Below are positions 3,001-64,000 of a stretch of 64,000 bases of DNA, piece by piece. Origin of the DNA: Capitulum mitella. Taxonomy: Eukaryota; Arthropoda; Thecostraca; Pollicipedomorpha; Pollicipedidae. Where the stretch lies: assembly GCA_030062745.1 (NCBI GenBank), contig CP099841.1, positions 3,720,001 through 3,784,000 of the forward strand, read 5' to 3'. Below the pieces are notes generated by a model, which worked only from the letters and a program-made list of their open reading frames with translations, was not told the DNA's origin and did no database searches. The translations under genes and the position numbers were made by a program. Within the stretch, counting starts at the first letter, position 1. Every line of letters starts with the position of its first letter.

Positions 3001-3554
3001 TGTTTGACCATGCTGAGCCAAATTTGCGATTTTCAGAACCCATTCGAAAATCCTTCCGGAGCCTATAACGACATCACGAAGGTGCGGAGTAGACCCGGCA
3101 ACGGCTGGGATGCACAAGAGAGCGGTGCACGACGGCACCTTCACAGACCGAGTGCTCATCAGTATGAGTTCCGAGCGGCGTCCGCGCCAACGCTCACAAT
3201 TCAGCGCCCTCACCTCCTCCTTGATCCGAACGGCTCGAGTGCTCTTTCCGATGAGAGATACCCGCTTATCTGGTAATTACGCTCCTATCTTATCGCTTTC
3301 TCGTATAATTTATTGCTCGGTCAACACTTGCGGCAAGCCCGTAAAGTCGGCGCCTTTGCGGCTTATCGCTGCGCGGCGGCGGCGAGCGCGGCGCGGTATC
3401 TAAACAGAGCGGCACGGTGCGGTCCGGCCGCCGCTAACCGGCGCCGCAGCGGCGTCCGAGCAGGCTGTGGCACCGGCCTGGCGGCCGACTGGACCGGTCA
3501 GCGTGACGCCCACCAGCCGAGCGGCCGTCTCGGAGCCGGCTGAACGACCACCGG
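1..3554. other. Intergenic stretch, no supported gene
   Basis: Bases 1-560 are CpG-rich with short overlapping open frames on both strands that match nothing I recognise. From about 700 to 3000 the DNA is AT-rich with frequent stops. Two stretches of it, about 1641-1835 and 1945-2135, are diverged direct copies of each other. From 3330 the composition turns GC-rich and leads into the minisatellite. No exon, RNA gene or promoter can be supported. The end of a gene lying to the left of the window could be hidden in bases 1-560, but nothing shows it. Confidence 0.5.
1641..2135. repeat. Degenerate direct duplication, two ~190-bp copies about 300 bp apart
   Basis: Bases 1641-1835 and 1945-2135 share an ordered series of matching blocks: AAGCTCACCCGA against CAGCTCACCAGA, then a shared ATATA-containing block, then CCAAAAATTACCCC against CCAAAAACTTATATCCC, and finally TTACGCCTATGA against ATACGCCTATGA. 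Many substitutions and small indels separate them, so this is an old tandem-type duplication or two copies of one dispersed repeat. It has no coding content. Confidence 0.45.
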
Positions 3555-4330
3555 GCCGTCAGGTTACCGGCCGACCGACTACCAGGCCGTCAGGTTACCG
3601 GCCGACCGACTATTGGCCGTCAGGTTACCGGCCGACCGACTATTGGCCGTCAGGTTACCGGCCGACCGACTATTGGCCGTCAGGTTACCGGCCGACCGAC
3701 TACCAGCCGTCAGGTTACCGGCCGACCGACTATTGGCCGTCAGGTTACTGGCCGACCGACTGCTGGGCCGTCAGGTTACCGGCCGACCGACTATTGGCCG
3801 TCAGGTTACTGGCCGACCGACTGCCGGGTCGTCAGGTTACCGGCCGACCGACTATTGGCCGTCAGGTTACCGGCCGACCGACTATTGGCCGTCAGGTTAC
3901 TGGCCGACCGACTATTGGCCGTCAGGTTACCGGCCGACCGACTATTGGCCGTCAGGTTACTGGCCGACCGACTGCCGGGTCGTCAGGTTACCGGCCGACC
4001 GACCACCTGGCAGCCAGATTACCGTCCAACCGCTTACCAGGCTTTCAGGTTACCGGCTAACCGATTACCCAGCCGTCAGGTTACCATCCCACCGTTTACC
4101 GGGCTGTCAGGTTACCGCCCGACCGATAACCGGGCCGTCAGGTTACCGGCCGACCCATTAACGGGCCGTCAGGTTACCGGCCAACCGCTTACAGAGCCGT
4201 CAGGTTACCGCCCGACCGATTACCGGGCTGTCACGTTGCCGCCCGGCACATTAGCGGGACGTCAGGTTACCTGCCGACCGAATACCGGGCCGTCAGGTTA
4301 CCGATCGGCTGATTCCCGAGGCTCCGAGAC
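3555..4330. repeat. GC-rich minisatellite, ~30-nt unit, about 25 copies
   Basis: The unit begins CAGGTTACCGGCCGACCGAC and ends TATTGGCCGT. It is repeated head to tail from about 3558. The central units (3590-4000) are nearly identical, and units after about 4010 are progressively diverged. Most units are 30 nt, but the variants ending TGCTGGGCCGT or TGCCGGGTCGT are 31 nt. The reading frame therefore rotates along the array, and each frame stays open only because the unit contains no stop codon. Long overlapping frames here (for example 3467-4060 and 3613-4161), which read as a repeated Pro/Tyr/Trp-rich decapeptide, are therefore best seen as by-products. The array lies about 2.3 kb beyond the 3' end of the Frizzled gene. 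Confidence 0.93.
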
Positions 4331-6652: not shown

Positions 6653-8222
6653 CTAGGCGGTCCGCGCCAGCGCCAGCGCCGGCGCTGTCGGCGCCGGCGC
6701 ATAGTTGACGCTCTTGGCGCCGTGGCGGCGGCGGCCGCAGCACAGGTCCACGCAGAACCGGTGCCAGCTGTTGCCCGTCTTGGACGTCCAGATCCACATG
6801 CCGCTGACCACGCCGACCACCAGCGACATGAACAGCTTCAGCATGAAGACGGAGACGAGCGGGATGCTGGCCTCCAATGGGCAGGGGCCGGCCGCCGGGC
6901 AGCGGGAGGCCTCGGCGCGGCCGCGAGCCTCCCACGCCTCCCAGTGCACCAGCTCGTACACGTAGCAGGCGACCACGCAGGCCGCCGGCACCATGTACAG
7001 CAGGCCGTAGACGCCGATGCGTACCATCAACGTCTCCAGCTTGTGCGTGTTGGTGCCGTCCCGGCGCATGCGGCGGCGAATGCGCACGAGCGCCGCGTGA
7101 CCGAGCGTCAGAAAGAGCGCGCCGGCCAGCAGGAGCAGCGCCAGCGGCGCGATCACCAGCCCCATCAGCGGCAGCCGTCGGCTGGAGACGTAGCAAAGCC
7201 CGGTCAGCTGGTCGCCGGCGATCGTCTGCGCCGTGATGATGACCAGCGTCAGCACGGCCGGCACGCCCCACGCCACGACGTGCAGGTGGGTGGCGTAGCG
7301 CTGGATGGCCTCCGAGCTCCACTTGCGGCCGGCGCTCAGGTACCAGGTGAAGGTGAGCACCACCCACCAGAGGCCCCGACGCCAGGCCGAAGTAATAGAG
7401 CAGCAGGAAGGTGACGATGCAGCCGGCGCTGTCCAGCCCGCCCGAGATCAGGAAGCGCTCGCCCTCGGGCGTGACGTCGCAGATCACGTGGTCGGCGCCC
7501 AGCACCATGCGCAGGAGGAAGCCGAGCGAGTAGATGTTGTAGCACATGCTGATGAAAACGATGGGCCGCTCCGGGTACTTGAAGCGCGCCGTGTCGATCC
7601 AGAACGTCAGCACCGTGAACAGGGTGGAGAGGAAGCAGAGCGTGGCCCACACGGTCATCCAGAGCTCGGCCAGCTGCCGGTCGCCGGCCGTGAAGAGCAC
7701 GTCGGCGCCGCAGGCCGGCCGGCAGCCGCTCTCCAGCGGGCCCTGCAGCCGCACGAAGCGGCGCGGACAGGCGGCCGGCGGCGGCGAAGGCCGGCCGGGC
7801 GCGCCGCCGCCGCCGCCGGTGCCGCCCGTGCCGCCGCCGGTGCCGCCGTTCTGCAGGAGGCCGGCCCAGTCCAGGTGCGGGTACTTGGCCACCAAGTGCC
7901 GGGCGTCGAGCGGCGCGGGCGGCGCGCGGCCGGCCGCCGCCGCCGGCCGCGTCTCCGAGCCGGTCGGGTAGGCCATGCACAGACTGCCGCCCTTCTCGCG
8001 CCCGTCGGCCGGCAGCCGGGAGCAGTTGAGAACGTGCGGCCACTCGAGGTTGATGGTGCGCAGCAGCGGCAGGCACTTGGCCTTCACCTCGTAGCAGAGC
8101 GGCTGGCAGCTGGGGATGGGCGCGTCCACCATCTCGGAGCACATGGGCGCGAACAGCGAGCACAGGAAGAAGCGCAGGTCGCTGCTGCAGTTGGAGTCGA
8201 TCAGCAGCGTGAACTGGCGCAG
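6653..8222 (-). CDS. Frizzled-4-class Wnt receptor, exon 2 (most of CRD plus seven-pass domain), frameshifted
   Basis: The predicted full protein is about 582 residues: 60 from exon 1 and 522 from this exon. Frizzled proteins sit in the plasma membrane, bind Wnt ligands through an extracellular cysteine-rich domain (CRD) and signal through Dishevelled. Residues 61-142 complete the CRD and supply eight of its ten cysteines (blocks NCSSDLRFFLC, PMCSE, CQPLCYEVKAKC, LNCSR, LCMAYP). A Gly/Pro/Ala-rich linker follows. The seven membrane segments run from about 248 to 537, and the Dishevelled-contact motif KTxxxW is present as KTGNSW (541-546). The tail is short, about 36 residues, without the PDZ-ligand ending known for vertebrate FZD4. 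The blocks RDGTNTHKLETLMVRIGV and MLKLFMSLVVGVVSGMW point to the FZD4 class. The frame is broken by one surplus base in the C run at 7374-7377: upstream reads LLYYFGLAS, and the next frame continues LWWVVLTFTWYLSAGRKW. Exon length is 3n+1, as this predicts. The acceptor at 8223 is a pyrimidine tract ending TTGCAG. Sequencing error is the simplest cause, with a recent pseudogene as the alternative. Confidence 0.93.
7374..7377 (-). other. Single-base frameshift in Frizzled exon 2
   Basis: A run of four C on the plus strand (GGGG on the coding strand). Reading three instead of four joins the TM3 segment ending YYFGLAS to the conserved LWWVVLTFTW block with no residue lost. Exon 2 as assembled is 1570 nt, one more than a multiple of three. 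Confidence 0.85.
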
Positions 8223-19660: not shown

Positions 19661-22600
19661 CGTGCTCATGATAGAAGGCGGCGGACGGTTTAGTTTCTAG
19701 AAACCCCGAAGTGCGCTTATCTATGTGGACGTTTCTTTGATTTCCCAAAACGACAGTATGAATGGTGTTAACTATACGATAGGAAGCGGCGAATGGGATC
19801 TCAGAGCCATTTTTTTCGGAACTAGTTTTCCTAAATATGTCCCCTCTTCTTCATTTCTGAGGCTTCTAAATTGCCGGCCATTTTAAAACCAGTCAGGAAA
19901 TTAAAACAGGTCTGGAAACGACGAAACGTAGTTTTTTCCTTGTGAGTTACTGACGGCAGTAGCTGTCTACGTTGAACAGATATAGGCTTTGGGCCCTACT
20001 TTATGGCTGAGAGGGACCTGAAAGATACGTCGTCTGAAAATTCAGGAAACCCAAAGACTCTCGTCGTTCACAATTTTCTCTGTCCACCACAGTTTTGGGC
20101 ACGAAAGTTAAAAGGCATGTTTTCCCGCTTTCTACGACGAAAGGTTTGCAACCAGAATCTTAAGGCATGACTGTTATTTAAGCCTTCAAGAAAGCTCCGC
20201 ATTCAGTTGAAAGAAGCTTTCCTGAATGTTGATGGATGTTTGAAAACGCCTCAGAAAACCTCAGGAGTTCTCATCGGTCCTGATCGGTGGCCCTTACAAA
20301 TATCCGAATGGCCCCAAGAAGATATGAAGATTTTATTCCAGTTATATAAGAGCTCTTTTCGGGATCTGTTTATTGGCCGCGGTCTTTTGGGACTTCAGCG
20401 TTTTTTTTTGGGGGGGGGAGGGTGGAGGCAGGGCTGTCATGGATTATGTACATGGCGTCCATCTCAACATTTTAGGGGTCTCAAGTAATCATTGGCCGAG
20501 TCGCTATGCCCAGCTCCTTCGAAAGAAATCAGATTTGCACCCTAGCTTTTGGGAATGCATGGCAGAGAGCTTATTTCCACAGCGTTGGAACCAGATTACG
20601 TACTGGCACTGGATTTGTCAGCATCTTGCAGTCACGCAGAGCTTTGCACATGCATGCAAAAAAGTCCATCTTAACGGATGCATTTTCAATGACTTGTTAA
20701 CCCGGTATCGCATGGGGTCTTCCGCCATTCGTAACAACCTGGAGGGTGGGTTAAAATCAACCCTCCTCGTATCTCAGGAACTAAGGGTGCGGTCCAAATG
20801 ATTCCATCGGCAATCGACAGGGTGTGTCTTCCTCATCTCGAGACGTGGCAACTGGCCTATTTCGCTGAACGAGACGGCACTAGTCACGAAAACGTCAGAA
20901 TTTACGGCCGAAAAATGTGCGATGCTCTTAAGAGAATCCGTCAGTGATGTCAGTGTATCAGTTCAGTGAAAACCTCAAGAATGATATCGAACAAAAGATC
21001 GTTGTTTCGTGTGTCTAGTGTGAAGGAAGAGGCATTGTAAAAGCTATCCTGAATCAGCCTGGAAGAGTTTTGAAACTTACGGTTGTGAAGTTACGGCCCA
21101 GCCGGGCGGCAGTGCTGGCCGGACGCTGTAAATGTTCTCGTAACCCTGGCCGCTCTCCTCGGAGTCGGCTCTTCCCCTCTCTCCTTGTGCTGTCTCAGTT
21201 GATGGTCACACGCTCATCGCGTGACTCGTTTTCCGTACCGTGGTCTCATCGTTTACAGTTCGGCCACAATTATCGGAAAACGAGGGGAGTTGTTTACTTT
21301 TAAATCTCCAGGCGGTCGCGGGTTAATCCCCCCCCCCCCCCACTAGGCGGTCTGGTGGTCTGATCGGCCGAAGGTGTTCGGCTCGAGTCTGGGTGGTGGC
21401 AAACAGCCGTCTGCGCCACGATGACCGGCGCCAGAGTCGGCGACGCCAAAGCAGCCCTGACAATCGAGAGCGTCGATAAGAAACGCGACGAGCAGGCTAC
21501 CCAGTTCCAGTCTCGTTCAAAGCGACACCCAGTTGCCGACATTTTGACTCGATGGAGAGACCTGCTTGAGAAAAAGTCAGTATTCTGTTGCGCTGTTTTG
21601 ACCTTTGCTGATTTCGTTTGCGGGTTTCGTCTCCATGAAACATTTTTTTGTAGAAGCAAGTCCTTTGCCACGGCGAGTGTGCATATATATGTATTAGCCC
21701 ATGCGTTCGGTCTCCTGGAAATTTTGTTGACCTCTGTATTTGGTCACTTGACGAAAGGGAGCCAGACGTGGTTGGAGTTTATTCTTCCGACGTCCAGTTA
21801 AACAGTGCAGATGTTTGGCGTATTTAAGGTTAGACGCCTACCAACAACAGAGGCAAATGCAACCGAAGAGCTGGGACGGACCAGAGCGCTTGGACAGCGG
21901 TGTGGATAGTGATGTGGGTACCAAAGCTGTTTAAAATACGACTTAAAACATGCCCAGTACTGCATGTATTTGCTTCATGAATATTATGATTAACGTAAAA
22001 CTCAGTATAAAAATATAAGCAAATGTGGAAAAGGGAAGCATCTGACCCACATTCGGTCATTTTGGGAGGGTTCATGACTCATCCAGCCTTCTCCTGGATA
22101 TCCTAGTCTTAATATCCAGCCGATAAAAACTATAGCAGTAGTAGAGCAGAGGGCGCGGTAGGAGCAATTTAACGGTTTTGTTGGTTAGGACGAAATGAAA
22201 GTTCCCGCTTTACCTCTGGAACAGCTAACCACCGGACTTGTGCCACGGTCATCGCAACCAGTATTGCTTTAAATGAAGGACGGGAGTGCATTAGAAGTGT
22301 TGCAGTTTCTACGTATTATATGCACACCCAGCCCGGCTTGAATGATTATGTAGGCAAAACGTCTCATCGTTAGACCAAAAGCAGGACGGAGGTCGGTGCA
22401 CCTTCCTCTCTCCTGTCGTATAGGCTTCTTTCTCATGCTGGCTCCCGATGCAAAACATGCTGCAAAACAAGTAGTACTGAAACGATGGTACAGTCGGGGA
22501 CAAAGTCGTGGCAAGTCGCGGGCAGCTCGGGAGCGAGAAGAACAGGCACCTGACGAGAAGAATAGGCACCCAACTTGATCGGATTCACTCGTGAAATCAT

Positions 22601-22851
22601 TGTGAGGTAAACTCCCGAAGCGATCTGACTATAAGTGCAAAAACAAATTGGTCCGTTGGTAGCGCCATATAATTGCAGAACATCGTTGCAAGCCAAATCA
22701 TGTGCCAGTGGGGCACCGGCGCAGCCAAAAGAGAGGCACAGGGGCCCACCCTCTCCCTTTAGGTCTGCATTTTTTGCGAAAAACATTGCACATGGTCTTC
22801 CCAGCAGACATTTTTCGTATGATTTTAGTTCACATTGAGCGCTGGGCCCCC
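19661..22851. other. Repeat-rich intergenic DNA, no supported gene
   Basis: I see no gene. The frame at plus 21421-21801 (126 codons) begins with a hydrophilic, exon-like stretch (DEQATQFQSRSKRHPVADIL) but matches no family I know. Bases 22740-22851 belong to a dispersed element whose related, inverted copy is at 29375-29480. Confidence 0.35.
22740..22851. mobile_element. hAT-like element fragment, left part, split by the TTAA element
   Basis: The segment running from CTGCATTTTTTGCG to CATTGAGCGCTGGG matches, inverted, the DNA just after 29375 (CGCATTTTTTGTG to CACTGAGTTCCTGG on the minus strand). It is cut at 22852 by the TTAA transposon and resumes after 24040 with ATCCCTGCCGCGCCC, equivalent to ATCCTGACTACGCCC of the uninterrupted copy. 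Confidence 0.6.
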
Positions 22852-23164
22852 TTAATCCGCCCCCGACTGGTGGGGCGGTTGGCCGCCCCCTTGAGGTTTT
22901 TCTAGGATTGCGTGAGAATGAACAGACAAAGCGCCATGAAACTTCGACTGCCTTTTGCTTGATCATTTTTACACCTTGTGTCAAAATTTCGACTTCAGGT
23001 CAAGCCAGGTGTCTGACCTAGGTCGGGCCAAACGGGCCTATCTCCAAAAAAGTTTAGCGCCCTGTAACTTTTTCGTAAAACAAGATATCACAATAATACT
23101 GTCAGGGATTAGTCATCTTGATAGATGTAACAAAAATGCTATCTCAGATTTTTCGGAATTTTCT

Positions 23165-23177
23165 GGGTCATTGACCT
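23165..23177. promoter_or_regulatory. Nuclear-receptor IR-1 site (EcRE-like) in TTAA element copy A
   Basis: GGGTCATTGACCT fits the ecdysone-receptor/USP consensus RGGTCANTGACCY exactly. The same site is preserved at the matching place in copy B (27002-27014). Binding is inferred from the motif only. Confidence 0.45.
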
Positions 23178-23312
23178 AAACTCAAGCCCATTTTGAAGAC
23201 ACGTCGTCGTATTTTTGGGGAATCGGCGGAATTTTTCATAACATTTTTAGTGTGGAGTGAAACAGACATCTAGTTACCGTCATTTGGCAAAGTATCAATG
23301 ACTTCCAGCCAT

Positions 23313-23330
23313 TGACCTGAGTTCAGGTCA
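23313..23330. promoter_or_regulatory. Everted AGGTCA pair in TTAA element copy A
   Basis: TGACCTGAGTTCAGGTCA has two half-sites pointing outward with 6 nt between them. It is preserved in copy B at 26850-26867 as TGACCTGACCTCAGGTCA. A nuclear-receptor role is inference. Confidence 0.35.
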
Positions 23331-24040
23331 CGAATAACTGTTGTGAGCCAAAATGTACCGCCGTCAAAATCAGCGATGAATTACTCAGAATGGGCGGAAA
23401 ATGGCAGAACTAGCTTGCACAGACGTAAGTAATATCAAGAACCTCAAAAAGATCCAAGAACTGCATGTCTTGGAAATAAACAGTTGTCGCGAATAAAGCT
23501 CCGCCAATTGTGTAAACTGGTAACTAATGAATTTTTCCAAATTTAAGCATCAGAAGCCATCACAAGAACGACTTAGATTAACGAAATTTACATGGATTGG
23601 GTTATGTCGGAAAAGTAAATGAACGCTAAAATTAGTCCCCGTTAATTTCTTACTGCGTAAAGCTGCGGCGCCCGCCTGCAACCGGCGTGAAAATTACTGT
23701 GTCTTAAACTCAACGTTCCGGCGTATATGTTAAACCAACCTGAGAAAGCATACGTGTATCGGCATCTGCAGACCTTTACCTGTGCGTCGATGCCTTTGCC
23801 TATGCGTGATTAGTCACATCCCTTGAGGTTGAGGCCGTTTCTCGGTCTCATGCAGTGGGCTATGAGAAAACATATACAGGACGTGAATTGTTTACATGTT
23901 ATATAAAACTAAAAATGAGACCAGTTACCGTGCGGCCAACCGTTCGTGAGTTAGAGGGGGGCGTGATCATCGGATCACGCCCCGATCACGCCCCCCAGTC
24001 GGGCGTGATCGTTGCCGACCGACGGTCGTGCGCGGGTTAA

Positions 24041-24492
24041 GAACATCCCTGCCGCGCCCTTGCAGTTGGGTCTCCGAGAAAAAAACTAAGAAGCCAACGC
24101 ATGGAACGCACCGCCTCGCGACTGGCTCTGTCCACACGAGTACATGGTACTTAAACTGTTTCAGATGCTCCAAGCTTCCTCACTTTGACGTTTATGCCTT
24201 CTTTTCTTCGGTAGCAGAGTAATGTATACGGCCACTTCATTTGGAATTTCTTCGGTTCTTTCAAGAACAAATTTCTAAACCACTGCGGACTTTTAGCGTC
24301 AGAAATAAAAACAGAAGTTTCAGGTATCTCTCATAGATGGCAGGCATATGTTGTTGCCGCCCGACCCATATTTCCGGTCGGGCGAAAAGTGACAACGCGG
24401 CGATCTGCAATGCGTATAGGGGCGTAGCCGGGATTCCACCCGGGGGGGGGGGGAATCGGATCAAGGGTGCCCTCATAACCAATGGGGGCCCT
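24041..24492. other. Spacer between TTAA element A and the 21-nt-unit element
   Basis: It holds the continuation of the element split by copy A, then unassigned DNA. Near 24420 there is a GGGGCGTAGCCGGGATT end-like sequence followed by a G-run, resembling a hAT-type terminus of the GGCGTAGCC class. I see no gene. Confidence 0.35.
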
Positions 24493-24943
24493 TGCCAATG
24501 ATGGATCCAGGATTTCGCCAAGGCGAGGGGGGTGGAGGCAAATGGTCAGCGCGGGACCCCCGTTTTTTGTCCTTCAGATACGAAAAATGATGTAATTTTG
24601 CTTTTTTATGTAGAAAAATAACGGAAAAAGATGCAAACGAGTCATGTTTTTCCAGAAAATTCCGCGTTTTGTTACCGAACAAAGTGGCCGAAATACGACA
24701 AAAACGACGAAATTTTGGGCGGTTCCGTCCCTCCGCCCGTTTGAAACGTCGTGAAATGTCGTATCTGGTGCAGGAGCCCGTCTGTACCCGCCCGCATCCC
24801 ATAGCTTCTGGGGATTTTTTTGTCAGCCTGGTTTAGGTTCCCTCTTTCAGTTACAGGAGCACTTTTGGTGGCCTCGGGGCGTCTGCCGTGCCAGGACCCT
24901 GTAGTGGTCTTAGGTTCCTTTTACAGTTTCACGTGTCCCGCGG

Positions 24944-25084
24944 GACTTTTTGTCTTGACATAATTGCGCTATATTGCGCCGTCGGAATATTGATCGTTGT
25001 GACTTGTTAATGGAGCTACTTAAACAAGTTATGCGCGCTGAATGACCTTGCAGTCGGTGCGCCCCATTAACTAACCAACCAACC
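24944..25084 (+). mobile_element. 5'-truncated LINE-like (or SINE) insertion with (CCAA)n tail and 13-bp target duplication
   Basis: The insert ends in a short AACC/CCAA tail (near 25072-25084). It is flanked by near-identical ACGTGTCCCGCGG (24931-24943) and ACGTGTCTCGCGG (25085-25097). The related locus in copy 2 has a single ACGTGTCCATCGG at 46435-46447 and no insert. A tailed, short-duplication insertion is what target-primed reverse transcription leaves. The element family is not identifiable from 141 bp. Confidence 0.7.
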
Positions 25085-26849
25085 AACGTGTCTCGCGGAA
25101 TGTCTCAGTCGCTCCTTTGGCAGTTTCAGGGCGCCTCGGACAGTCTAAGGGACCTATCTGGCAGTTTCAGGGACGCTTAAGCCACCTCGGGTTTCCTCCC
25201 ATCGTTTCTGGGACGTTTTTGCCGTCTAAGGAGCCCTTCAGGCACCCGCTACTAGTCTCTCTCTGTCGTAACACAGGCGCCTCTGGCAATCCTCTAGGGC
25301 CTTTGGCCGTTTCAGGAGCAGTTTGGACGTCTTAAGGTCTAGCAGTTTCAGGGGTCCCTCTGGTCGTCTCCAGGGGCCCCTATTGCTAGAGACTTCTAGT
25401 AAGCAGTCTCAAAGGTCCCTCTCTGGCAATCTCAGTCGACCCCTGTGGCCCTGGGTACCCCTCTTATCGTCTCTGGGAAGCATTTTTGCCATCTCAGGGG
25501 CCCTCTGGCAATTACAAAGACCTTTTGGCAATTTCAGGGCCCCTGTGCAGTGTCAAAGGCCTTCTGAACGCCTCCGCCTCCGGACCATGGCTGTACCAGG
25601 GGTCTTCCTCTGTCACATGAGGCATATCTGGCAGTCTTTTAGAGCCCCTCTGGCCGTAACAAGGGTCTTTTGTTGGCGCTTTAGTGGCCTGACTGGCAAT
25701 CTCAGTGGGACCTTGCCCGTGCCAGGAGCCCGCTTATTACACTCGGGGACCCTCTGGCCGTCCAGCGCCTCCAGAAAACGTCTTTGCCTCGGAGGAGCCC
25801 TGCGACCTTTTGGCGGTCTCAGGGGCCATCTGCGGTGTACGGGCCCATCTTGCCGTCTCAGAAACCATATGATCTTCCCGGGGGCCCACAACAGTACCAA
25901 AAACCCCTCAAGGTTTCAAAAAGGCCAGTGTAGACCATTTGTGGCTCCTCTCGAGGTTGAGAAGGGCACCGACGAATTCCCGTTCAGGGGGCCCCTCTGG
26001 CTAGCCAGGGTGTCTCTTTACGCCGTCTTAGTCTTAAGTTCTCTTAAGACTATGACTCTTATAAATACTTATATATGTATACTCTTATATCTCTTAAGTC
26101 CTCTTAACCCGCGCACGACCGTCGGTCCGTCCCGAACACCGTCGACTGGGGGGGGCAGTTGACTGCCCCCCCCCTCTAACTCACGAACGGTTGGTCGCAC
26201 GATAAAAATAAGCATACCGTTGGAAAGCCCGTCACGAGTAGAGCTCGAAACTGGTCTCATTTTTAGTTTTAGATAATATGTAAGCCAATTTACGCCCTAT
26301 ATATGTTTTCTCATAGCCGACTGCATGAGACCGAGAAATGGCCTGAATCTCAAGGGCTGTGACTAATAACGCATAGGTAAAGGCACCAGCGCACAAGTAA
26401 ATGTCCGCGGATGCCGATACACATCTAATTTCCTAAGATTTGTTCAATATATGCGCCGAAACGTTGAGTTAAAGACACCGTAATTCTCCCGTTAGGCGTC
26501 ACTGTGCGCCGCTGCCTTATGCGGTACCAAATTGACGGGAACTAATTTTAGCGTTTCTTTATTTTTGCGAAAAAAGACAATCTATGTAAATTTTATTGAT
26601 CTTTGTGGTTCTTGTGATGGTTTTTCATGCTTAAATTTTGGAAAAATTGATTAGTTGTCAATCTACAAAATTGGCGGAGCTTTATTCGCGAGAGCCTGTG
26701 TATTTCCAAAATATGCTACTTTTTCAAACTTTTTGAGGTTCCTGGTATTACTTACGTCTGTGCAAGCTAGTTCTGCCATTTTCTTCCCATTCTGAGTAAT
26801 TCATCGTCGATTTTGACGGTGGTACATTTTGGCCCACTTCAGTTATTCG

Positions 26850-26867
26850 TGACCTGACCTCAGGTCA
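26850..26867. promoter_or_regulatory. Everted AGGTCA pair in TTAA element copy B
   Basis: TGACCTGACCTCAGGTCA, the counterpart of 23313-23330 in copy A, keeps both half-sites although the spacer has changed. Confidence 0.35.
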
Positions 26868-27001
26868 ATGGCTGGAAGTCACTGATACTTTGCCCAATGA
26901 CGGTAACTAGATGTCTGCTTCACTCCACACTAAAAATGTGATGAAATATTCCGTCAATTTCAGAAAAAACGGCGATATGTCTTAAAAATGGACTTGACCT
27001 T

Positions 27002-27014
27002 AGGTCAATGACCC
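27002..27014. promoter_or_regulatory. Nuclear-receptor IR-1 site (EcRE-like) in TTAA element copy B
   Basis: AGGTCAATGACCC is the counterpart of 23165-23177 in copy A and fits RGGTCANTGACCY exactly. The two copies differ at many flanking positions, yet both hold a perfect site. Confidence 0.45.
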
Positions 27015-27834
27015 GGAAAATTCCGAAAAATCCGAGATAGCAGATTTGTTGCATCTATCACGATCACTAATCCCTGAAAGTATTATTGAGATATCTTGTT
27101 TTGCGAAAAAGTTAGAGGGCGCTAAACTTTTTTGGACTTAGGTCTATTTGACCTGGTCTAGGTCAGGCACCTGACCTGACCTGGGGTCAAAATTTTGACA
27201 CGAGACGTAAAATTGATGAAGCAAAAGGTATACAAAGTTTTGTGACTCTGTGTTTGTTGGTTCTCTCGCAATCTTAGAAAAACCTCAGGGGGGGCAGTCA
27301 ACTGCCCCCTCCAGTCGGGGACGGGTTAAGTTCTTGCTGTCTCAGGTGCCTTTTTAGCGATTTCAGCTGTGTCATGAACTCTTTGCCGTGTTGTGGGCCC
27401 TGAAAAGTTTCAGGGGCCCTTCTTTCCAGTTTAGGGGTCATCTTTCCGTGTCAGGGTCTCATTAACCCGGCCGGGGGCCCTCTGACTACATCAAGAACCT
27501 TCAGCTTTTCACTCACAGGGACCCCTAGAGACTCAGTCGTCATTTTGGCCGTCTCAGGGGCTCTATGAGCCATCTGGCGGTCTCAGGGACACTCTGGAAA
27601 AATGTGTTGGGGTCCTTTGGGAGCTTCAGGGGCTCTCTTTGCGTATCAGGGGTCATCTAACCCTCCAGGAGGCCTCCCTGATTGCATCAAGAGCCCGTCA
27701 GGTTCTGTAGAGGCCCTGTGAAGCTCATACGGGGCCCCTTCGGTACTCCTTTTAAGTCTGACAAGGGCCCCTTCTCAGGCCTCAGGGGGGAGGGAGCGAT
27801 CGCTTCAATTGCTCCCTTTTGGATCCGCGCCTGG

Positions 27835-28789
27835 CCCTCGTAATCAGTGGAGCCCCATGTGTTTAAATTTACTGTTGGTTTGTAAAGGGGCCCCGCTGAA
27901 ATGTAAAGGGGCCATGCTCGCCTGTAAAATGTTCCTGCTGACCTGGCGGGTGACTCTTACAGGTCGGTAGGGATATTTTTACAGGAAATCAGGGGCCCTT
28001 GAATGATCGTTTAGGGTCTCCTGTTGGCCAGGGGGTTCACTGCCTGTCTGTAGAGGGCACCCTATCCACCTGCAAAGGGCCCCTGTCGACCTCTGGAGGC
28101 AGGGGCAGGGACCTCCTTCCAGAACGAAAGGAGGTCCCTTCAGAGGCTGACAGGGGGCCTTTATGGGCCAAAAGGGGGCCCTCCCCAGACAAGCAGTGAA
28201 CTCCCCCTCAAGCTAGCAGGGGCCCCCAACGCTCATTCGGACCACGGGCCTCTTTTCATAGTGCACAAAGCCTTCTTGTGTATTCGAAGTACGCTCTCTT
28301 TAGGTTCGTAAGCATTCTTCCATGCTTAAAATATTCTTGTTTTGCTTTCATTGTTTGTTTCGGACACTGTAAGACGTCTTGCGGGCGCCTCACGTTATCC
28401 AAATAACTGGGGCCTTCGGCCCCAGGGGACCCGCTCGGTCGCCAGGGGACCCGCTTAGCCTCGGGAGGGGGGGGGGGCGTGGCCCCTTTGGACCTCTTGG
28501 CTACGCCACTGAATGCGTATGTGTATCGTATGACAGTCTGCCCGAAGCAATTGCGATGCAGGATGTCATTTGTCTCATTTGTGCAGAATGGGCCATAGAA
28601 GGGAGATATAGTGTTCGATGTCTGCGAATTCACCACACAGCGGCCTTTTTCTCATCAAAATACACCTACTTCGTGTACGAAACAGAGAGTTACAGTTTGT
28701 TCATAATGTGCACAATATTAAAGAGACAAGCAAGAAAAGATAAAGAAAAAATATTGCACATCTCCACTCTATAAACCACCCTTAATATA
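27835..28789. other. Intergenic, low-complexity GC-rich blocks, no gene
   Basis: Bases 27850-28250 continue with AGGGGCCC-type words. Bases 28400-28516 end in GGCTACGCCACTG, which resembles the terminus of hAT-like elements of the CAGTGGCGTAGCC class, but its partner end was not found. No gene is supported. Confidence 0.3.
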
Positions 28790-29160
28790 CTAGTAAACAA
28801 TGTATTGCTGCATAAATCAGTTCCACATCACACGAACAAATCAGAGTACTGGATTCAGTGTTTTGGCCGGGAACATCAGAAATAATCTAGAGCATGAAGT
28901 CAAAATTTAAACGTACATGGAAAAAGGCGAATGAGGAACAGGAAAGCCATCTCATCACAGCAGACACTCAAAAAAATAACAACAACGAATACAATATCAC
29001 ACAACTATTCACTGCGAGCAATAAAAAGGGCTCAACTTTATTCAAGTCAGAAACAATGACAGGTCCTCTAAAGCGAAAGCTCACGAGAGACACGAAGAAC
29101 CAGATATATGGTGACGAATTTTACAGTTAACGAACAACGACCCAAACGTTGAGTTTAATA
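28790..29160 (-). mobile_element. Penelope-like element 3' remnant, copy 1
   Basis: This segment aligns along its length with 49885-50220, the region downstream of the GIY-YIG frame of the second Penelope copy (shared ATAATCTAGAGCATGAAGTC, then GCAATAAAAAGGG, then GAGACACGAAGAACCAGA). It keeps a degenerate hammerhead-like core at 28860-28879 (minus strand CTGATG, stem with GGCC, then AAAAC). No endonuclease or reverse transcriptase remains. Confidence 0.55.
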
Positions 29161-29344
29161 TTCTCTTTGATTTGTTACCAATTTAAATAACAACGCAGTG
29201 TCTTATTGTATACTGAAGAACATCAGTATTGTTGATATTGTTGATTAATTGATATATTCAAGTATACGATATCTCAAACCCAGGAGCATTTAAGAACCAT
29301 TCTTCAATATATTAGACGATGGAATAAAATTATTCAACTACTTT

Positions 29345-29910
29345 CGCATGGGGGCGTAGTCAGGATTTCCTTTAAGGGGGGCCAGGAACTCAGTGTGGAT
29401 TGAAATTATACAAAAACCGCCTGCAGGTGAGACGATGTGTCATGGCTTTCACAAAAAATGCGGGCGGGGGGGGGAGCGGGCCCCCTTTGGCTGCATCGAT
29501 GCTTTTGCACACTTTCCCAGAACGGCATGTGCAAGTCCAGTGTGTACACAACGCTGCTGTAAATGCTGCTGGATAGAGCATCGTGATAGTGTGGTTCAAC
29601 TGGAGAATCCCGTGGGGGGACATCATGGCCATGTCTCCTTTTACTGGAAAATCCGGGGCCAGTATGTCTTTCGCCCCATCCCTTTTTGGACGGAAATGGT
29701 GGAAATTTTGTTCTCGAAAAGAAAAATTGTTGATGTGTATGGTAATTTTCGAAAATGGCGAAACAACGTGGCCCAAATCCGAGGAGAAATTGGCATTTTG
29801 GTGTAGGTTGGATTGCATGGATGGAGACTGTCCTTTGACCCCTACTTCCATTAGCACATGGTCTGGACCCACCCTTGCATGGTCCTTCTTCCATGTCAAA
29901 AAGGAAAGAA
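29345..29910 (-). mobile_element. hAT-like element fragment with the uninvaded TTAA site
   Basis: On the minus strand this stretch contains the same series of blocks as 22740-22851 plus the DNA right after 24040, but uninterrupted: GGCCCCCC, TTAA (29372-29375), then ATCCTGACTACGCCCC. The GGGGGCGTAGTCAGGATT end belongs to the GGCGTAGCCAGG class of termini. Long frames on both strands (for example minus 29390-30085) carry no known domain and appear to be chance. Confidence 0.55.
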
Positions 29911-31743
29911 AATACTGATACTGAAAATAATCACGTAACTGCAATACGTTCAGTATCTTACGGATTCTTCCGCTTGCTTGCTCGTATTTCAGCAGCGTGA
30001 CAGTTCCATTCCATGTGCATGAAGTTGATCTCATTTGGACTAAAATGTCTGCACATGTTGCTAATGTCTGCACATGTCTGCACATGTTGTTGCTCTGAGT
30101 TCTGATTCACCCTTCGGACGTTAACGAATGAATGAGTTCAGATCTTGCTGTTTTCCTTGTTTTCACAAGTAGCAAATACAAAATGGGTAAAGCTCGAGGG
30201 AACGCAGAAATTCCCCTCCATCGTCCAAATTATTTCTTAACTAACGGATGAATCTCAGTCATTCAAACACCAGTCTATAACCCTGAAGCCTGACATCTCA
30301 GGATGATCGTGGCCACATCGGGCATGATAAACTGCTATCGCATTTCATCCACACCCCATCACAAATAACTTAGATACTGCAAGCTTATCATGCACGTTAA
30401 CATTACTAACATTTGCTCAGGTTCACTTCACAGGTCAGGGGCAAGTAAGGTCGATAGCCAACGTCTTATTATGCCAAGAAGTTCTGGACTGACCTGGCCA
30501 AACAGAACTTAAATGGACAATCACGTAATTCCACAATCTCGTCAAACATATCACGCAGCTCTCAAAGAGCTTGCTTAATTCAGATTGTGTCGTACATGGA
30601 CACCACCTTTTGAAAATTACAAAACTTGCTATTCAGCCTTTGAGAACCTAGTATCCGGCTAAGAGTGTTCGACAGTTTTCTTATGACAGTATATAGCGTC
30701 TACCGCAAAATGCCAAAATATCACAAGTTACTCATGTAAGCAAAGAACAAGTGAATTCGAATCGGATGAAAAAAATCGTTGACATGTTGCTTATCACTTC
30801 ATTTTGACGTGATCTCGGACCATCTTGATAAGAAAGCCCGTACCAAGATTCGCGAAATTGACAGAAGAAAAGGTGCTGCAATTTTCATGTCATTGTCATT
30901 GCTTTTTAAGGTGTTGTGAAAATCCGCCAGGTGAGAGGGGGTGACAATGCCTGCTCCCTCAGTCAGTTGCAAGTTAACGAAACAACATAGACGAATGTAT
31001 GAACATAATTAATGTGCGTAGTTGTTTCTCCATAAAATGATGTCGGTTATTTCACAAGCTATCGCCATTCATCTGTATTCATATACGATATGGAATGATT
31101 CCAGTTATGGGCGCAAGTCAACTTCAACTGATATTAACATTAGCTTCATGAAATGGCATGTTAAGAGACCATCCCAACATTGGCATACCCCTACTACCCT
31201 TAAAAACGTTTTTGTGCCTGGGTTCCAGTGGTCTACTAGATGCCGGTGGCAGGTTTTTTGTTGAAGAAATGCGGTTTGGTTTGTTTTGTAATTCTCAGCT
31301 TCTGTCTCCGTGCGCTGCTCGCCGTTCCGCGACCGCATTCGCAGTTCTTAGAGCCCTTGTTTGTTCGTTTGTGAGTTAGGATGCACAGCGCCTTGGGCTC
31401 AGGCCCTCGTGTATCGAGAGAAGCCCTGTGTTTCGCCAGGCATCAGTCGATCGTTTGCCGGGGGCACTGGTATGCGGGATGTGTGCCGATCGAGGCCGCA
31501 GCGACGGGGGCACCTGTACGTGAACTGAGGCGAACTCTTCCTGTGCTCTCCGGCTGGCGGGCGTGGCGCTGCTGGTTCTCCACGGAGGATACAGCTGGAC
31601 GTTACGTGGCACCAGAACGACGGTCGTCAAGAGCTCACCCAGAGAAAGCAGCATCAAAAAAGCATGCATGTATTCACAGCTCAATGCACCATACAAGAAC
31701 GGTAAATACCTTTCCCCTGATAAACAACGCGCGACCGGACGGC
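29911..31743. other. AT-rich intergenic DNA 3' of the cuticle-type gene
   Basis: No gene, tRNA or strong repeat is seen. Bases near 31743 should contain the 3' UTR of the cuticle-type gene, but I found no AATAAA or ATTAAA on the minus strand within about 700 bp. The frame at plus 31381-31893 runs antisense into that gene and is not credible. Confidence 0.35.
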
Positions 31744-33430: not shown

Positions 33431-34500
33431 CGAGCGTGGGCTGGGCCCAGTCAACTTCGTTCACCCCAAGGCAGTGGGGCGCGTGTAAACAAGTCTCGTG
33501 CCCGTCACCCGTCAGCCGTGACAAAAAGCCACCTCCAGCCCTAGGTTACCGAAACGCTCCTGGCAACTAACTCTGGACGGCTAATTGTTTCCATGTGATA
33601 TTAAGGACAACGCTACGGGAAATTGTGAGTTGCTTTCATTGTTTTCAGTGCAGCAATCCGGGGAAGTCAGAGATGTCCGAAGGCCATGCCAGCTGAATCC
33701 GTGGATGAGAAGCGAGCAACGATCACCGTTCGTACTTAGTGCAGGTGTGGGGAAAGGTGTCGGAACCCGCTGACGTCCAGCCACGATTAAGTAAAGACCC
33801 ACGTAAGAAAACGGACCGTATCGACCTAAATGTACTTCAACACTCACTGAGGAAGGCGCTGGAGCAACGAGTGGGGAAGAAGTTTAGTGGTTTTTAAGCG
33901 GTCGATGCCATTTGCGCAGACAGGCGTCCGTTGCGCTGTGCAGTAAGCATCCGGGGCCCTAAGCGCGTACTCCCTTGATTTTCCGGTCTTGATGTCGACC
34001 AGCGGCTTCCCGTAGCAGCAGAGGCCTTCATTTCTTTTAATCCTTTTCCGTTATGGAGAGGGGGCTTCAGAAGCCACAATTCCATTTTTTCTCGCCTTTT
34101 CCTGCGTTGTTAAACAGGTCCACAAAACTTGACTTTTCCTGGCCATTCTCCTCACGTATCATGCCAGATCTTCATATTTTTTTAACCAGGGGCAAAGCCA
34201 GATCAAGTTTTTTGGGAGGCACTTCATGCCATATTGGCACTCTTTAAGGTAAATGGAAAACGGCTGCCAAACACAGATTTTGTAGACATGTACATTGAAC
34301 TTAAAACGTTATATGGGAGTATGAATAAATAACTGGACAAACATACAAAAATATTTTGCTGATCTGAGATCACTTGACAATGTAAGATCAAGGTGAAAAG
34401 TTAAAATCTGGTTTCATGTAAATATTTTGACGGTAATGTTTAAAATCCATGATTCGGAAGATATAAATATAAGAAAAAGACACTTAATAGAACGTCCTCT
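33431..34500. other. Upstream region of the cuticle-type gene, no gene
   Basis: Regulatory DNA for the cuticle-type gene is expected here but no specific site stands out. At 34187 CAGGGGCAAAGCCAG resembles a hAT-type terminus. At 34767-34785 CATGCCCCTGGCGCCGCC resembles another. They are probably ends of two different decayed elements. Confidence 0.3.
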
Positions 34501-35860
34501 ACTTGTGTTTCAAGTTTTAGGTCGATATTAGGTCAGGCCACGGAGATAGGATCTAAAATGTCCTCCCGCCTACCCTCTATCACGGCGGCTATAAACTGGA
34601 CTTTTAGGAAATATACTCAATTCAAATGACAGGAAACGTTTTCGAGCACTATAAAATGAAATCAAGGACATTCCGCGCGACTCTGAGATCATTTGAAGCC
34701 ATTTAAGGTCAAAGGTCGTAAGATGGCCTGATGAACGTACGACCGCGACAGTTGCCGCTTTTTCATGCCCCTGGCGCCGCCTATGATGACATTTTACAAG
34801 CAATGTAATACGACTGGGACGTCCTGAGCATCTTTCATCACATTCACTGGTCACGCTTTGGTTCTGGCCGCTTCAGTGGCGGTCGGATGAGGTGCAGAGT
34901 TGTTTGTCGGGCGTACATTGAGGCAGGTGTTTCCGGAATCAACGTCTAACCAATATTGTCGTGTTTCAGGTGCATTAACAAAAATGCCCGGTTGCATATA
35001 GTAGTTTTTGAGCATTAATGCCCTGTAGATATGAACACAAAGCTTTGATTTCGCCCCTACGACGTACCATAAACGTGACATTTTTTTCAGAGCAGGCAAC
35101 AGTACAGCGAGATGGGAAAACGTGGCTAGCTTTGCTAGTTATCTATCTGTCTTTTAGCAAATCATTTGTATACCAACTGCATTACACGGATGTTCATTAT
35201 ATAGCCCGTAGTTGACTATGTACTCAGCACACCTTAATTTTATTCCTGTACCCATACTGCATGGCCACGAAAAAGGGGAACTGTAATGGTCGCAGTTTCA
35301 TGAGGTCAACTTATGATCCTTGACCTCAAATGACCTGGAAATGACCTCAAAGGCACACAGTACGGTCCTTGGATTCGCTTCATAGCGTTTGAAAGCGATT
35401 CCTGTTGGTTACTGGGCTATTTAACAATGCTCTCGACTGCCAGGATCATTTTTCGTCACAACCTCTCACGCCGCTTGTCACGAGGGACGGCGAAATGGTG
35501 CTGTTACCCGGGCTTGAACCGGGGACCTTTTGGTCACAATGCGAGCACGGTAACCATTACGTTACGCCGCCTCCCTTGAAAGCGATTCCCGTCATTTGAA
35601 TTGACTATCTTCTTCAGTGCCCTGTTTGTGGCCGTCGTGATATGGGGTACGCCCGAGGACATTTTAGGTCATAGTTCCATTACCTGGCCTAATATTGACC
35701 TGAAACGTGAAACACAAGTAGAGATTATTCTTCTAAGTCATATGAATTTGGTTTTTCCTTTATGAATATTATCGTCAAAAAAGTGCATAAAACCATATTT
35801 TGACTTTTGACCTTGACCTGATCTGATCAAATTACTTCTGGACAGCAAAGGTATTTTTAT
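34500..35860. repeat. AGGTCA/TGACCT-rich segment
   Basis: Half-sites are unusually dense: TTAGGTCAGG near 34531, a direct pair AGGTCAAAGGTCG near 34706 (DR-1 type), then GAGGTCAACTT, TTGACCTCAAATGACCTGG and AATGACCTCAAAGG near 35305-35352, and TTTGACCTTGACCTG near 35805. The SINE at 35403-35575 interrupts the segment. The words resemble the interior of the TTAA elements, so the segment may derive from a relative, but I could not align it end to end. Confidence 0.4.
35389..35589 (-). mobile_element. tRNA-derived SINE with 14-bp target-site duplications
   Basis: TTGAAAGCGATTCC occurs perfectly at 35389-35402 and 35576-35589, flanking 173 bp. On the minus strand the body starts with a tRNA-like head: an A-box-like TAACGTAATGG (35554-35564) and a B box GGTTCAAGCCC (35510-35520) that fits GGTTCRANYCC. 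The spacing is as in a tRNA promoter. The tail beyond the tRNA-like part is about 90 bp, unrelated to tRNA, and ends AACCAACAG. The acceptor-stem partner is missing, so it is not a functional tRNA gene. Confidence 0.85.
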
Positions 35861-45100: not shown

Positions 45101-45897
45101 GAGCAGGGGTTGGGGGTCGAGAAGCATTTTGGGTCAGTTCTGTCCTTCTTTCCTCATAAGGTCAATGTCAGATTTCGAAAAAAACTTGGGATCTGAGGCC
45201 TCCCTTGGTCCCATGATTCCCGGGCCTATGTACATAGCTGAGATTGCACCACATGGCGCACTGCCGAACAATCTAAATGAAACAGCATAAATTTTTGGTA
45301 TTTGTGTAAAGTTACACTTTTTGGGCATGAGACTGATTAAGATGAAGCTGAGTAAAATGAAACGAAAAAATGAGAATGATGTCACAAGAGAAAATTAATG
45401 GCCTTGTACGAGTGACTTCATCATGCCACTTCACCTTTTCGCCTTTTTATTGCTTTACTTTACATTTCCACGACTTCTACCAGAGAACCTTGGACAGAAT
45501 TCCCCTGAGACTGCCTAACGTGGCTAGAACATTAATGTAAGTTGGGATGCAGGTGCATTTCTAACTTCACGAAAGTTAACATTATGGCTATGTTGGCGTA
45601 TATGGCCTCCATTACGCCTGTATGGCGTCGAACGAAAAGAATTGGGCTCAGACTGGGGTATGTATCCCCAATAATTTTAAAAAAGTTTCGCTCCTGCTGT
45701 GTAATGCATCTGATGAAAGGTGTTATTGGGTCCAAAGAAAAACATGGGCCTGTTTGTTTACAGCTGGCTGGCAGCGTGCGCAGAATTAAAGAAACACTTC
45801 AAATGTTACCTACTAGATGTCGCAAGTGAATACAGAGGACATTCTCCCTGATTTCGGCATGAAACGATGACAGACATACGTAAGCGCTAGACACGAT
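42136..45897. other. Intergenic DNA, no supported gene
   Basis: It includes a perfect 13-bp hairpin at 42194-42224. Frames such as plus 42510-42821 (with one hydrophobic segment) and plus 43471-43704 are short and unrecognised. The rest is AT-rich with nothing I can name. Confidence 0.3.
42194..42224. repeat. Perfect 13-bp hairpin
   Basis: AGCTGAGCACCCT (42194-42206) and AGGGTGCTCAGCT (42212-42224) are exact reverse complements around CTGTT. Its function is unknown. It is close to the missing terminus of the mariner-like element but does not match the CAGGGTGG end. Confidence 0.6.
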
Positions 45898-47992
45898 CAG
45901 GGGCGCATCCAGGATTTCACCAAAGGAGGGGATGGTCAGCATGGGCCCTTCCCTGCCGCCCCCGTCTTCTTTTGCTTTTCAGATATGAAAAACGTCGATT
46001 TGGTCGGGGCGGGAAATATTTAATGTAACTTTGCATTTCTACCGTATAAACAACCGAAAAATTCAATTGCGCCACCCTTTCTCAGAAAATTTTGCGTTTT
46101 CTTCCCCACAAAGTGACCGAAATATGACAAAAAAGGCTATTGTGTTTTTATATATATATTATATATTTATATATATAAACATATTTCAATGTATACACAT
46201 ATTAAAATCTACAACAACGGTGGGATGTTGAGCGGATACATCCCTTCCTCCATATGAAATGTCGTGTCTGTATCTGGTCCAGGAGCCCCTCTGCCCCCCC
46301 GTAGTTCCTGGAGATTTTTTTTGTCGCTAACTTAGGTTAGGTTCTCTCTTGCACTTACAGAGGCAGTTTTGGTGGTTTCGGCCCGTCTGCTGTGTCAGGG
46401 CTCTCTAGTGGTCTCAGGTCCGTTTTACCGTACCACGTGTCCATCGGGACGTCTTAGAACTGCTCTGGCAGTTTCAGGGGCACCTCGGGCAGTTTCATGG
46501 ACCAATTTGACAGTTTCAGGGACACTTAAACCTTCCCAGGTTCCCACCTGTCGTCCTTGGGGGATTTTTTTCCACCGAAAGAGCCCCTTTCATGCAGTAA
46601 CTAGGGCGACTCTATAAGTCTCTCTCTGCTGTGACAGAGGCGCCTCTGGTAGTCCTCTAGGTCCTTTGGCTTTTTCAGAAACTGTCTGGACGTCTCAAGA
46701 TTTAATAACTTCATGGACCCTCTGAACGTCTCAGGGGCCCCTGTTGCTAGAGGCTGATAGCTATCAGTCTCAAAGGTCCTCTCTAGCAGTTTCAGTGGAC
46801 CTCCTGTTGTCCTAAGTGCCCATCTTGTCGTCTCTGGGAAACATTTTTGTCGTCTGAGGGGCCCTCTGGCAGCTACAAAAGACCTTTTGGCGATTTCAGG
46901 GCCCCTGTGCAGTGTCATGGGCCCATTGAACATCTCCGGTGGTCTCCATGGATTTATCAGATATCTTCCCCTATTACACGAGGCATACCTGGCAGTCTTA
47001 GGGCCTCTCTAGCCGTATCAGGGGCCTTTGGTGGCGCTTCAGGGGCCTCGCTGGCAATCTCAGGGGGACCTTTTCCGTGCCTGGAGCCCGTCTAACACAC
47101 TTGGGGGCCTTCTGGCCGTCCAGGGCCCCATGTCGTCTTAGAAGTCCTCTAATCGTCTTTGCCTGGCAGGGGCCCTCAGGCCTTTTTGGCGATCTCTGGG
47201 GTCATCTGCCTTGTAGGGGCCCATATTTCCTTCCCAGGACCACCTAACCTTTCCCTGGCTTTCCCGGGTTCCCTGACTGCATCAAGAGCACCTCAGGTTA
47301 AAAAAATCAGTGAAGTCCATTTGGTTTGTTTGTAGCCTTCTCGAGGTTTGTTCCTTGTTCAGCGGGCCCCTCTGGCTGGCCAGGGTCTTCTTATGCCTTA
47401 TGCTAGGCAGCCCCTTAAGTTCTTGCCATCTCAGGGACTTATCTGGAACTTTTAGCGTTCTCATGGATTCTTCGCTGTGTTGGGACCTCTCTTGCAGTCC
47501 CAGGGATCCAATTGGATCCCAGGGATCCTATTGGTCCTATTGGAGAGTTTCAGGGGCCTTTCTTTCCACCTTGCCGAGTCAGGGTCCCATTGACGCCCAG
47601 AAGCCCTCTGACTGCATCAGGAACTTTCAGCTTTTCACAAAAGTCCGTGAAACGCATTCGGGGCCACTACGGCATTCCAGGGTCTCCTATGGCCTCAGTC
47701 CTCATCTTTGCCGTGTCAGGTTCCCTGTGACTCTTCCGGCGGTCTTGGGGGCAATCTGCCGCGTTGGGGCCCTTTGGGAGCTTCAGGGATGCTTCTATGC
47801 ATCTCAGGGGTCAACTAACCCATGTGACCTAATCGTGACTGCATCAAGAACCCATCACGTCTTCACAGAGACCCCGTTAAGCTCATACGGGGCCCCTTCT
47901 GAGACCCTTTCGTGTGGCCCCTTCTCAGGGTTCAGGGGGGAGGGGCGACTGCCCCCATGGCCCCCTTCCTTGGATCCGCGCCTGGAGACGAG
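45890..47992. mobile_element. ~2-kb element built of degenerate ~21-nt units, copy 2 (uninvaded)
   Basis: It starts CAGGGGCGCATCCAGG at 45898 and ends TGGATCCGCGCCTG at 47984, inverted termini. The flanking octamers GACACGAT (45890-45897) and GAGACGAG (47985-47992) agree at 6 of 8 positions, consistent with a decayed 8-bp target duplication and a hAT-type element. The interior is a chain of ~21-nt units of the form TTTGGTGGCGCTTCAGGGGCC with many substitutions, plus an AT microsatellite at 46144-46185. It is colinear with copy 1 and keeps the empty sites for both of that copy's insertions (46435-46447 and TTAA at 47415-47418). There is no transposase. Confidence 0.7.
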
Positions 47993-63371: not shown

Positions 63372-63455
63372 CACTCATTGACTTTGGATATCGGTGGGCC
63401 TGACCTAGCTTTGTCGTGCTAGGTCAGGTCCACTGATATCCAAGGTCAATGAGTG
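63372..63455. repeat. Long hairpin, 38-bp arms with 8-nt loop
   Basis: Bases 63372-63409 and 63418-63455 are reverse complements at 35 of 38 positions. All three differences are transitions that would still pair as G-U on one strand. Arm ends read CACTCATTGAC and GTCAATGAGTG, and the inner ends TGACCTAGC and GCTAGGTCA. The arms contain AGGTCA words and a shared GATATC. Confidence 0.8.
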
Positions 63456-64000
63456 TAAATAAAAAATTGCTCATTTGTCGTGCATTGAGGTGACTACATT
63501 TATCCTTTAGTCAAGGTCCCCACCACTTTTCCATGTGACCCATTTACAGAATATTGCATTTTTGTACACGAACCCGCTTGACCTCGATTGACCTGACGCA
63601 GGGTACTTAGGCCTTTTGATTGTAAATTTGTCATAAATGCTACCTCCCCTCAAAGTTCTGCAAGGAATTATCGTCTCTACGTTTCCAATTCTTTTTCATG
63701 CACTCCTATTGTTTGTCAGGACATGACGAGAATCATAACAAATCTGCCAGCCCTTACTTTTTTAACCTTCCCCGTACCAGGGGATGTTTGAACACTACCG
63801 TCAGGTTTTTCCGCCGTAGCAGAAAAACGGCAAAACATAGGGCTGCCAAATTTGCCGCGTCTTTTCTATCATTGATTACACGTATTCAGTCAAAGTTTTA
63901 GTCCCGAGTCAGGTCAGACCACTGACCTAGATCAGGTCAAAGAGCTCAACCTTAAATTTTTTGACCACCTGTTACTTTTTGGGGGGTTTGACCGAGTTCG
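63456..64000. repeat. AGGTCA/TGACCT-rich tail of the window
   Basis: Half-sites recur: TTGACCTCGATTGACCTGACG near 63580 and CAGGTCAGACCACTGACCTAGATCAGGTCA (in three half-sites) near 63911-63940. The word use matches the TTAA elements and the 34.5-35.9 kb segment. No frame is credible, and the segment runs off the window. Confidence 0.4.

Follow-up and report, generated by a model that had tools for sequence, protein, structure and literature searches.

Two similar segments of barnacle DNA, both bounded by TTAA and lying in opposite orientation, raise the question of which transposon superfamily they belong to and how far their ends and their order of insertion can be read from a single locus. 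The segments, copy A (22852–24040, plus strand) and copy B (26104–27329, minus strand), are found in a stretch of 64,000 nucleotides of the Capitulum mitella genome (assembly GCA_030062745.1, contig CP099841.1, positions 3,720,001 to 3,784,000 of the forward strand). We call this whole stretch the window, and all positions below refer to it. A and B are, with high probability, two old copies of a non-autonomous DNA transposon of about 1.2 kb that belongs to the piggyBac superfamily and has ends built like those of the piggyBac element of Trichoplusia ni. A preliminary description of the locus had proposed a piggyBac-like non-autonomous element, and this reading is supported by the TTAA, by the CCC...GGG ends, and by an asymmetric palindrome layout with a shift of 27 bp.

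Boundaries of the two copies and their empty sites

Copy A has its left end at 22852. Copy B has its left end at 27329 and its right end at 26104. The TTAA is counted on both sides of each copy and is present at all four ends. In the full-length alignment of A with the reverse complement of B, from TTAA to TTAA, 985 of the 1174 ungapped columns are identical (83.9%), with 67 gap columns and a Kimura two-parameter distance of 0.183. The identity varies along the element beyond chance (chi-square 63.8, 22 degrees of freedom, p 6e-6): among segments of 50 alignment columns the best is 551–600 (48/50) and the worst is 801–850 (31/50). The segments are therefore oppositely oriented, TTAA-flanked copies, as first described. 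The termini had been called CCCG-type. This is correct for three ends read inward, but the left end of A reads TCCG.

The likeness of A and B ends at the TTAA. The 200-bp flanks on the left-end side align with a score of 12.3 (shuffle mean 10.4, reached by 44 of 300 shuffles), and those on the right-end side with a score of 9.3 (shuffle mean 10.3, reached by 222 of 300). The preliminary description had named similarity extending past the TTAA as what would speak against its definition of the element; between A and B no such similarity is seen, both flank scores being within the shuffle range.

Each copy lies in a host element that has a relative without the insert in the same window. The host elements are presumably hAT-like, a label that rests on their 8-bp repeats and CAGGGGCG-type ends; their boundaries were set by eye. 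The host of A (22714–24062) is short, about 160 bp without A, and its relative without the insert occupies 29349–29501, with TTAA at 29372–29375. B is hosted by an element of about 2.1 kb (24496–27833, B included), and the related element without the insert occupies 45898–47984, with TTAA at 47415–47418. The two larger elements are 72.6% identical over 1881 columns.

The 8-bp repeats that border the host of A, CAGTGGGG at 22706–22713 and CAGTTGGG at 24063–24070, are alike at 7 of 8 positions and lend further support to the site of A. The repeats of its relative (29341–29348 and 29502–29509) also agree at 7 of 8 positions, while 6 of 8 agree around the host of B (24488–24495 and 27834–27841) and around the relative of that host (45890–45897 and 47985–47992). 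Random pairs at fixed positions reached at least 7 matches in 8 of 20,000 cases and at least 6 in 94 of 20,000. With both positions sliding by 3, the counts were 74 and 592 of 5000, so that each of the 6/8 repeats is weak when taken alone. The fixed-position sum of 26 for all four insertions was reached in 0 of 200,000 random draws.

Flanks of about 200 bp were compared with the empty sites by local alignment, with 500 mononucleotide shuffles for each; when the flanks were joined and aligned globally with MAFFT, the junction of B was misplaced. The right flank of B matches the sequence from 47419 onward with a score of 42.6 (shuffle maximum 23.5), and the match is base-precise at TTAAGTTCTTGC. 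The left flank of B matches the stretch up to 47414 (score 38.7, shuffle maximum 18.5). The left junction is not base-precise, because 70 bp of AT-rich sequence of the CTCTTA type (26034–26103), which starts with TTAAGTTCT and is missing from the 47-kb copy, lie between the matching flank and B. On the plus strand of the window, TTAAGTTCT is found only at 26034, at 27326 (the right junction of B), and at 47415 (the empty site).

For A, the left flank matches the sequence from 29376 onward with base precision (score 48.8, shuffle maximum 20.3). The right flank over 200 bp has no match to the empty site (score 11.5, shuffle maximum 18.0). The host element ends 22 bp past the right TTAA of A, by a boundary set by eye, and this is the weak point of that flank. 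Cut to about 35 bp, the right flank scores 4.2, a value attained by 22 of 5000 shuffles; among the 516 TTAA flanks of both strands it takes third place, with the flank itself in first.

The unoccupied target that had been proposed for A is thus confirmed base by base on the left and weakly on the right, by the 35-bp test and the 8-bp host repeats. The one proposed for B is base-precise on its right side but not on its left, where the 70 bp are extra. The ends, the TTAA duplication, and the insertion order that had been deduced from the locus stand, with the right flank of A and the left flank of B as their weak spots. It follows that the host elements were there first and that A and B were inserted later. 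Nested insertions of this kind provide a relative dating, the hosts being earlier than A and B.

Superfamily assignment and alternatives

Positions within the ends are counted inward from the TTAA. Both ends of B carry an inner palindrome. The left one, GGGGGCAGT-TG-ACTGCCCCC, occupies bp 17–36 (27290–27309, minus strand), and the right one, GGGGGGGGCAGT-TG-ACTGCCCCCCCC, occupies bp 41–66 (26148–26173, plus strand); their arm lengths were reached by 3 and by 0 of 2000 shuffles, respectively. A CGACTGG box stands outside each palindrome, at bp 9–15 of the left end (27311–27317, minus strand) and at bp 36–42 of the right end (26143–26149, plus strand), i.e., with an offset of 27. On the right, the G run belongs both to the box and to the palindrome. 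The repeated block is longer than the box: left-end bp 9–38 equal right-end bp 36–65 at 29 of 30 positions, and the offset of 27 scores 28 compared with 8 for the next best offset. Over the first 18 bases, the two tips of B are identical at 12.

The exact palindrome GGGGGCAGTTGACTGCCCCC is found in B only. The left end of A carries GGGGCGGTTGGCCGCCCC in its place, and its palindrome, GGGGCGG-TTGG-CCGCCCC, occupies bp 17–34 (22872–22889, plus strand). It differs from B by three substitutions in the core CAGTTGACTG; two of them together convert a single A-T pair to G-C, which can be a matter of chance. The left block of A also recurs on its right end with an offset of 27 (left bp 7–19 and right bp 34–46, 12 of 13). 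The hairpins of the right end of A are quite different. Its core is swapped for CGTGATC...GATCACG, and the inner hairpin, GGGGCGTGATC-CGAT-GATCACGCCCC, occupies bp 54–79 (23958–23983, minus strand). A hairpin search found a second one, CGATCACGCCC...GGGCGTGATCG (23983–24011, plus strand), which overlaps it. The inner palindromes that had been described at both ends are present at both ends of B, but their letters are only partly common to the copies, and the right end of A appears to have been rebuilt.

The piggyBac element has CCC...GGG ends and 19-bp subterminal repeats that lie 3 and 31 bp inside its terminal repeats (PMC2533014). Its left-end palindrome (bp 17–33) is bound by the cysteine-rich domains of the transposase, bp 7–16 are contacted by another DNA-binding domain, and right-end bp 34–63 are almost identical to left-end bp 7–35 (PMC7351741). 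The ends of B likewise have the form CCC...GGG. The dyad center lies at 25.5 in the published left end of piggyBac (17–34), at 26.5 in B, and at 25.5 in A, and the right-end offset is 27 in B versus 27–28 in piggyBac by the published numbers. Asymmetric subterminal palindromes of the T. ni type are present in B, and in A they are represented only by the left end and the outer block of the right end. To our knowledge, such palindromes are not universal in the piggyBac superfamily. We regard the fit of the palindrome positions as the best evidence for the superfamily at this locus. The inner palindromes had also been called unusual, but their positions match known binding sites of the C-terminal domain of the piggyBac transposase.

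A number of observations weigh against this assignment. Among the ungapped matches listed for the piggyBac left end, none scored above 3 apart from TTGAC, which the two elements have one base apart (bp 26–30 in piggyBac and 25–29 in B) and may share by chance. The CCCG and TCCG tips are outside the piggyBac tip motif CC[C/T]T (PMC2872659) and outside the terminal motifs CACTA, CCCTC, CCCTT, and CCCAT reported for its relatives (PMC10813416); the fourth base is a frequent feature, not a defining one. The spacing comparison was chosen post hoc, after the asymmetry had been noticed; TTAA and CCC...GGG had already indicated piggyBac. The left palindrome of A is, by itself, within chance (arm length reached by 62 of 2000 shuffles). 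The left end of A fits the right end of B best at an offset of 28 (score 14), with 27 second (score 10), because the left palindrome of A is shorter. When whole elements were shuffled (100 shuffles, loops up to 12), the longest arms were 10 for A and 12 for B versus the observed 11 and 12; therefore the argument is carried by the positions at both ends, not by arm length alone. The 70 bp beside B are unexplained. In none of the 27 stop-free frames of at least 40 amino acids that touch A or B was a transposase recognized, nor did any of them have a Pfam match at the curated cut-off. Finally, what had been called a family rests on the two copies A and B.

As a background for the arm lengths, among the 515 cases of TTAA in the window (per strand), an arm of at least 7 within 80 bp occurs in 22, of at least 9 in 11, and of at least 11 in 4, the ends of A and B included.

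The other TTAA superfamily that we considered is Kolobok, of which A and B might be non-autonomous members. Kolobok elements duplicate TTAA, as is seen at A and B, and occur in arthropods as well as in many other animals, but their termini are 5'-RR...YY-3' (PMC9587614), whereas B has CC...GG. Kolobok was rejected on these termini and is an improbable assignment. We know of no Kolobok counterpart of the piggyBac-like asymmetry of the palindromes. It is less probable still that A and B are one locus duplicated in inverted orientation and then diverged, with no second transposition. Their opposite orientation and their distance of 2.06 kb would suit such an event; however, their flanks differ on both sides, and they sit in separate host elements, each of which has an unoccupied relative. 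The inverted duplication was rejected on the unlike flanks.

A narrower question concerns the right palindrome of A, which could be a subfamily trait selected for a different transposase instead of damage that followed the insertion. The perfect symmetry of the hairpin, with its 11-bp arms (1 of 2000 shuffles), speaks for selection, and the pair altered on both sides at the left end of A may point the same way. Nevertheless, the two ends of A are no longer alike within the palindrome and mismatch each other there. Moreover, the 80 bp of the right end of A contain four copies of the 9-mer GGCGTGATC or its complement, which is absent from the rest of the window; one copy sits in the spacer next to the hairpin and pairs with the following copy to give an 11-bp hairpin. 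Template switching on quasi-palindromes is an established mutational mechanism, and the four copies, with one in the spacer, fit the pattern expected from it. The likelier origin of the right palindrome of A would thus be a template switch to its own spacer that overwrote the former sequence; a selected subfamily trait seems rather doubtful.

With A and B taken as non-autonomous piggyBac-like copies, their transposition may be pictured as follows. The transposase would come from a gene located elsewhere. After binding to the tips and to the inner palindromes, it would excise the element and insert it at a TTAA, with duplication of that target. The palindromes would offer binding sites to a dimer of the C-terminal zinc domain of the transposase. 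On the right end, the additional 27 bp might accommodate a second dimer, as has been proposed for T. ni piggyBac in a model of synapsis by two dimers.

Coding content and other repeats of the window

The window is animal DNA, as indicated by a Frizzled membrane region at 6653–7363 on the minus strand (Pfam E 4.8e-67); the other three frames of that scan gave no match at E 0.01. In keeping with a non-autonomous element, the frames touching A or B had only matches below the cut-off, none of them to a transposase: gliadin (E 0.03), tRNA_Me_trans_C (E 0.14), and zf-WIZ (E 0.0046, 15 residues). An Rfam scan of 22500–30000 yielded no family at the gathering score. Exact patterns of the element were missing from viral contigs (a 31-mer) and from contigs of prokaryotic genomes (a 24-mer), and B was missing from plasmids; these collections are unlikely to contain an animal repeat. 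In the accessible parts of the literature on barnacle and crustacean transposons we found no match to the element; Repbase not being covered, it may nevertheless have been published.

Both copies are enriched in AGGTCA/TGACCT, the nuclear-receptor half-site: A contains 5 occurrences and B contains 9, where about 0.5 would be expected, and 0 of 1000 dinucleotide shuffles reached this level for either copy. This observation is post hoc. When hexamers are ranked by excess, this one takes second place in B and fourth place in A; for the shorter GGTCA the excess in A is weaker (reached by 16 of 1000 shuffles). The palindrome GGGTCATTGACCT occurs in A (23165–23177) and in B (27002–27014) and has no other match in the window. 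It resembles an ecdysone-receptor element. No literature joining the ecdysone response element, PAL1, and AGGTCA was found. TGACCT/AGGTCA is also present in the arms of an imperfect hairpin of about 100 bp at 63363–63464, whose sequence and reverse complement share 82% identity.

The interiors of the 2.1-kb host elements (24800–27780 and 46300–47900) seem to be built from short, degenerate units, CTCTGGCAGTTTCAGGGGCCC being one example. The commonest 8-mer in these elements is AGGGGCCC, with 8 occurrences in each in the counted part of the interior. Just outside the host of B, at 28001–28238, lies an imperfect palindrome of about 240 bp that is 68% identical to its own reverse complement. Other repeats include a dispersed pair at 28876–29137 and 49984–50244 (76% identity over 270 columns) and an inverted pair at 34347–34646 and 35575–35858 (71% identity). 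A minisatellite with 25 copies of a 31-bp unit (3536–4303) is crossed by three overlapping open reading frames of 167–197 amino acids.

Comparison with known piggyBac-like systems

As a transposon, the element is well resolved but ordinary. Its interest is in the ends. We suggest, as a tentative possibility only, that the end geometry of piggyBac, with a palindrome starting at bp 17 and the block repeated 27 bp deeper on the right, has been kept in a distant lineage despite nearly all letters of the tip and the palindrome being different. If so, evolution would conserve the layout rather than the sequence as the requirement, and the letters of the palindrome would co-evolve with the C-terminal domain of the transposase. 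The palindrome may then already have switched its sequence between A and B while staying symmetric. The two-dimer model of piggyBac synapsis finds a natural test in these ends, which have the same spacing and mostly different letters. Should copies elsewhere in the genome confirm the offset, spacing would be what selection keeps.

Three systems are close enough for comparison. The coral piggyBac-related miniature inverted-repeat transposable elements (CMITE) are, like A and B, small, flanked by TTAA, and known with an empty allele. They differ in being only about 100 bp long and in having inverted repeats of about 14 bp that start with CCC, and the main text of the paper does not contain the word "palindrome" (PMC2872659). 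The piggyBat element of Myotis lucifugus, another member of the superfamily, shares with A and B unlike ends and subterminal palindromes, which in piggyBat are imperfect and are bound by the C-terminal domain. Unlike A and B, it carries three copies of an imperfect palindrome on the left end and no counterpart on the right (PMC11707139). The nearest likeness is to piggyBac (IFP2) of T. ni, which has the TTAA target, the CCC...GGG ends, a left-end palindrome from bp 17, and a left-end block repeated 27–28 bp deeper on the right end. From this element A and B differ by largely different letters, by the CCCG tip, by the runs of G and C in the palindrome arms, and by having no recognized transposase gene.

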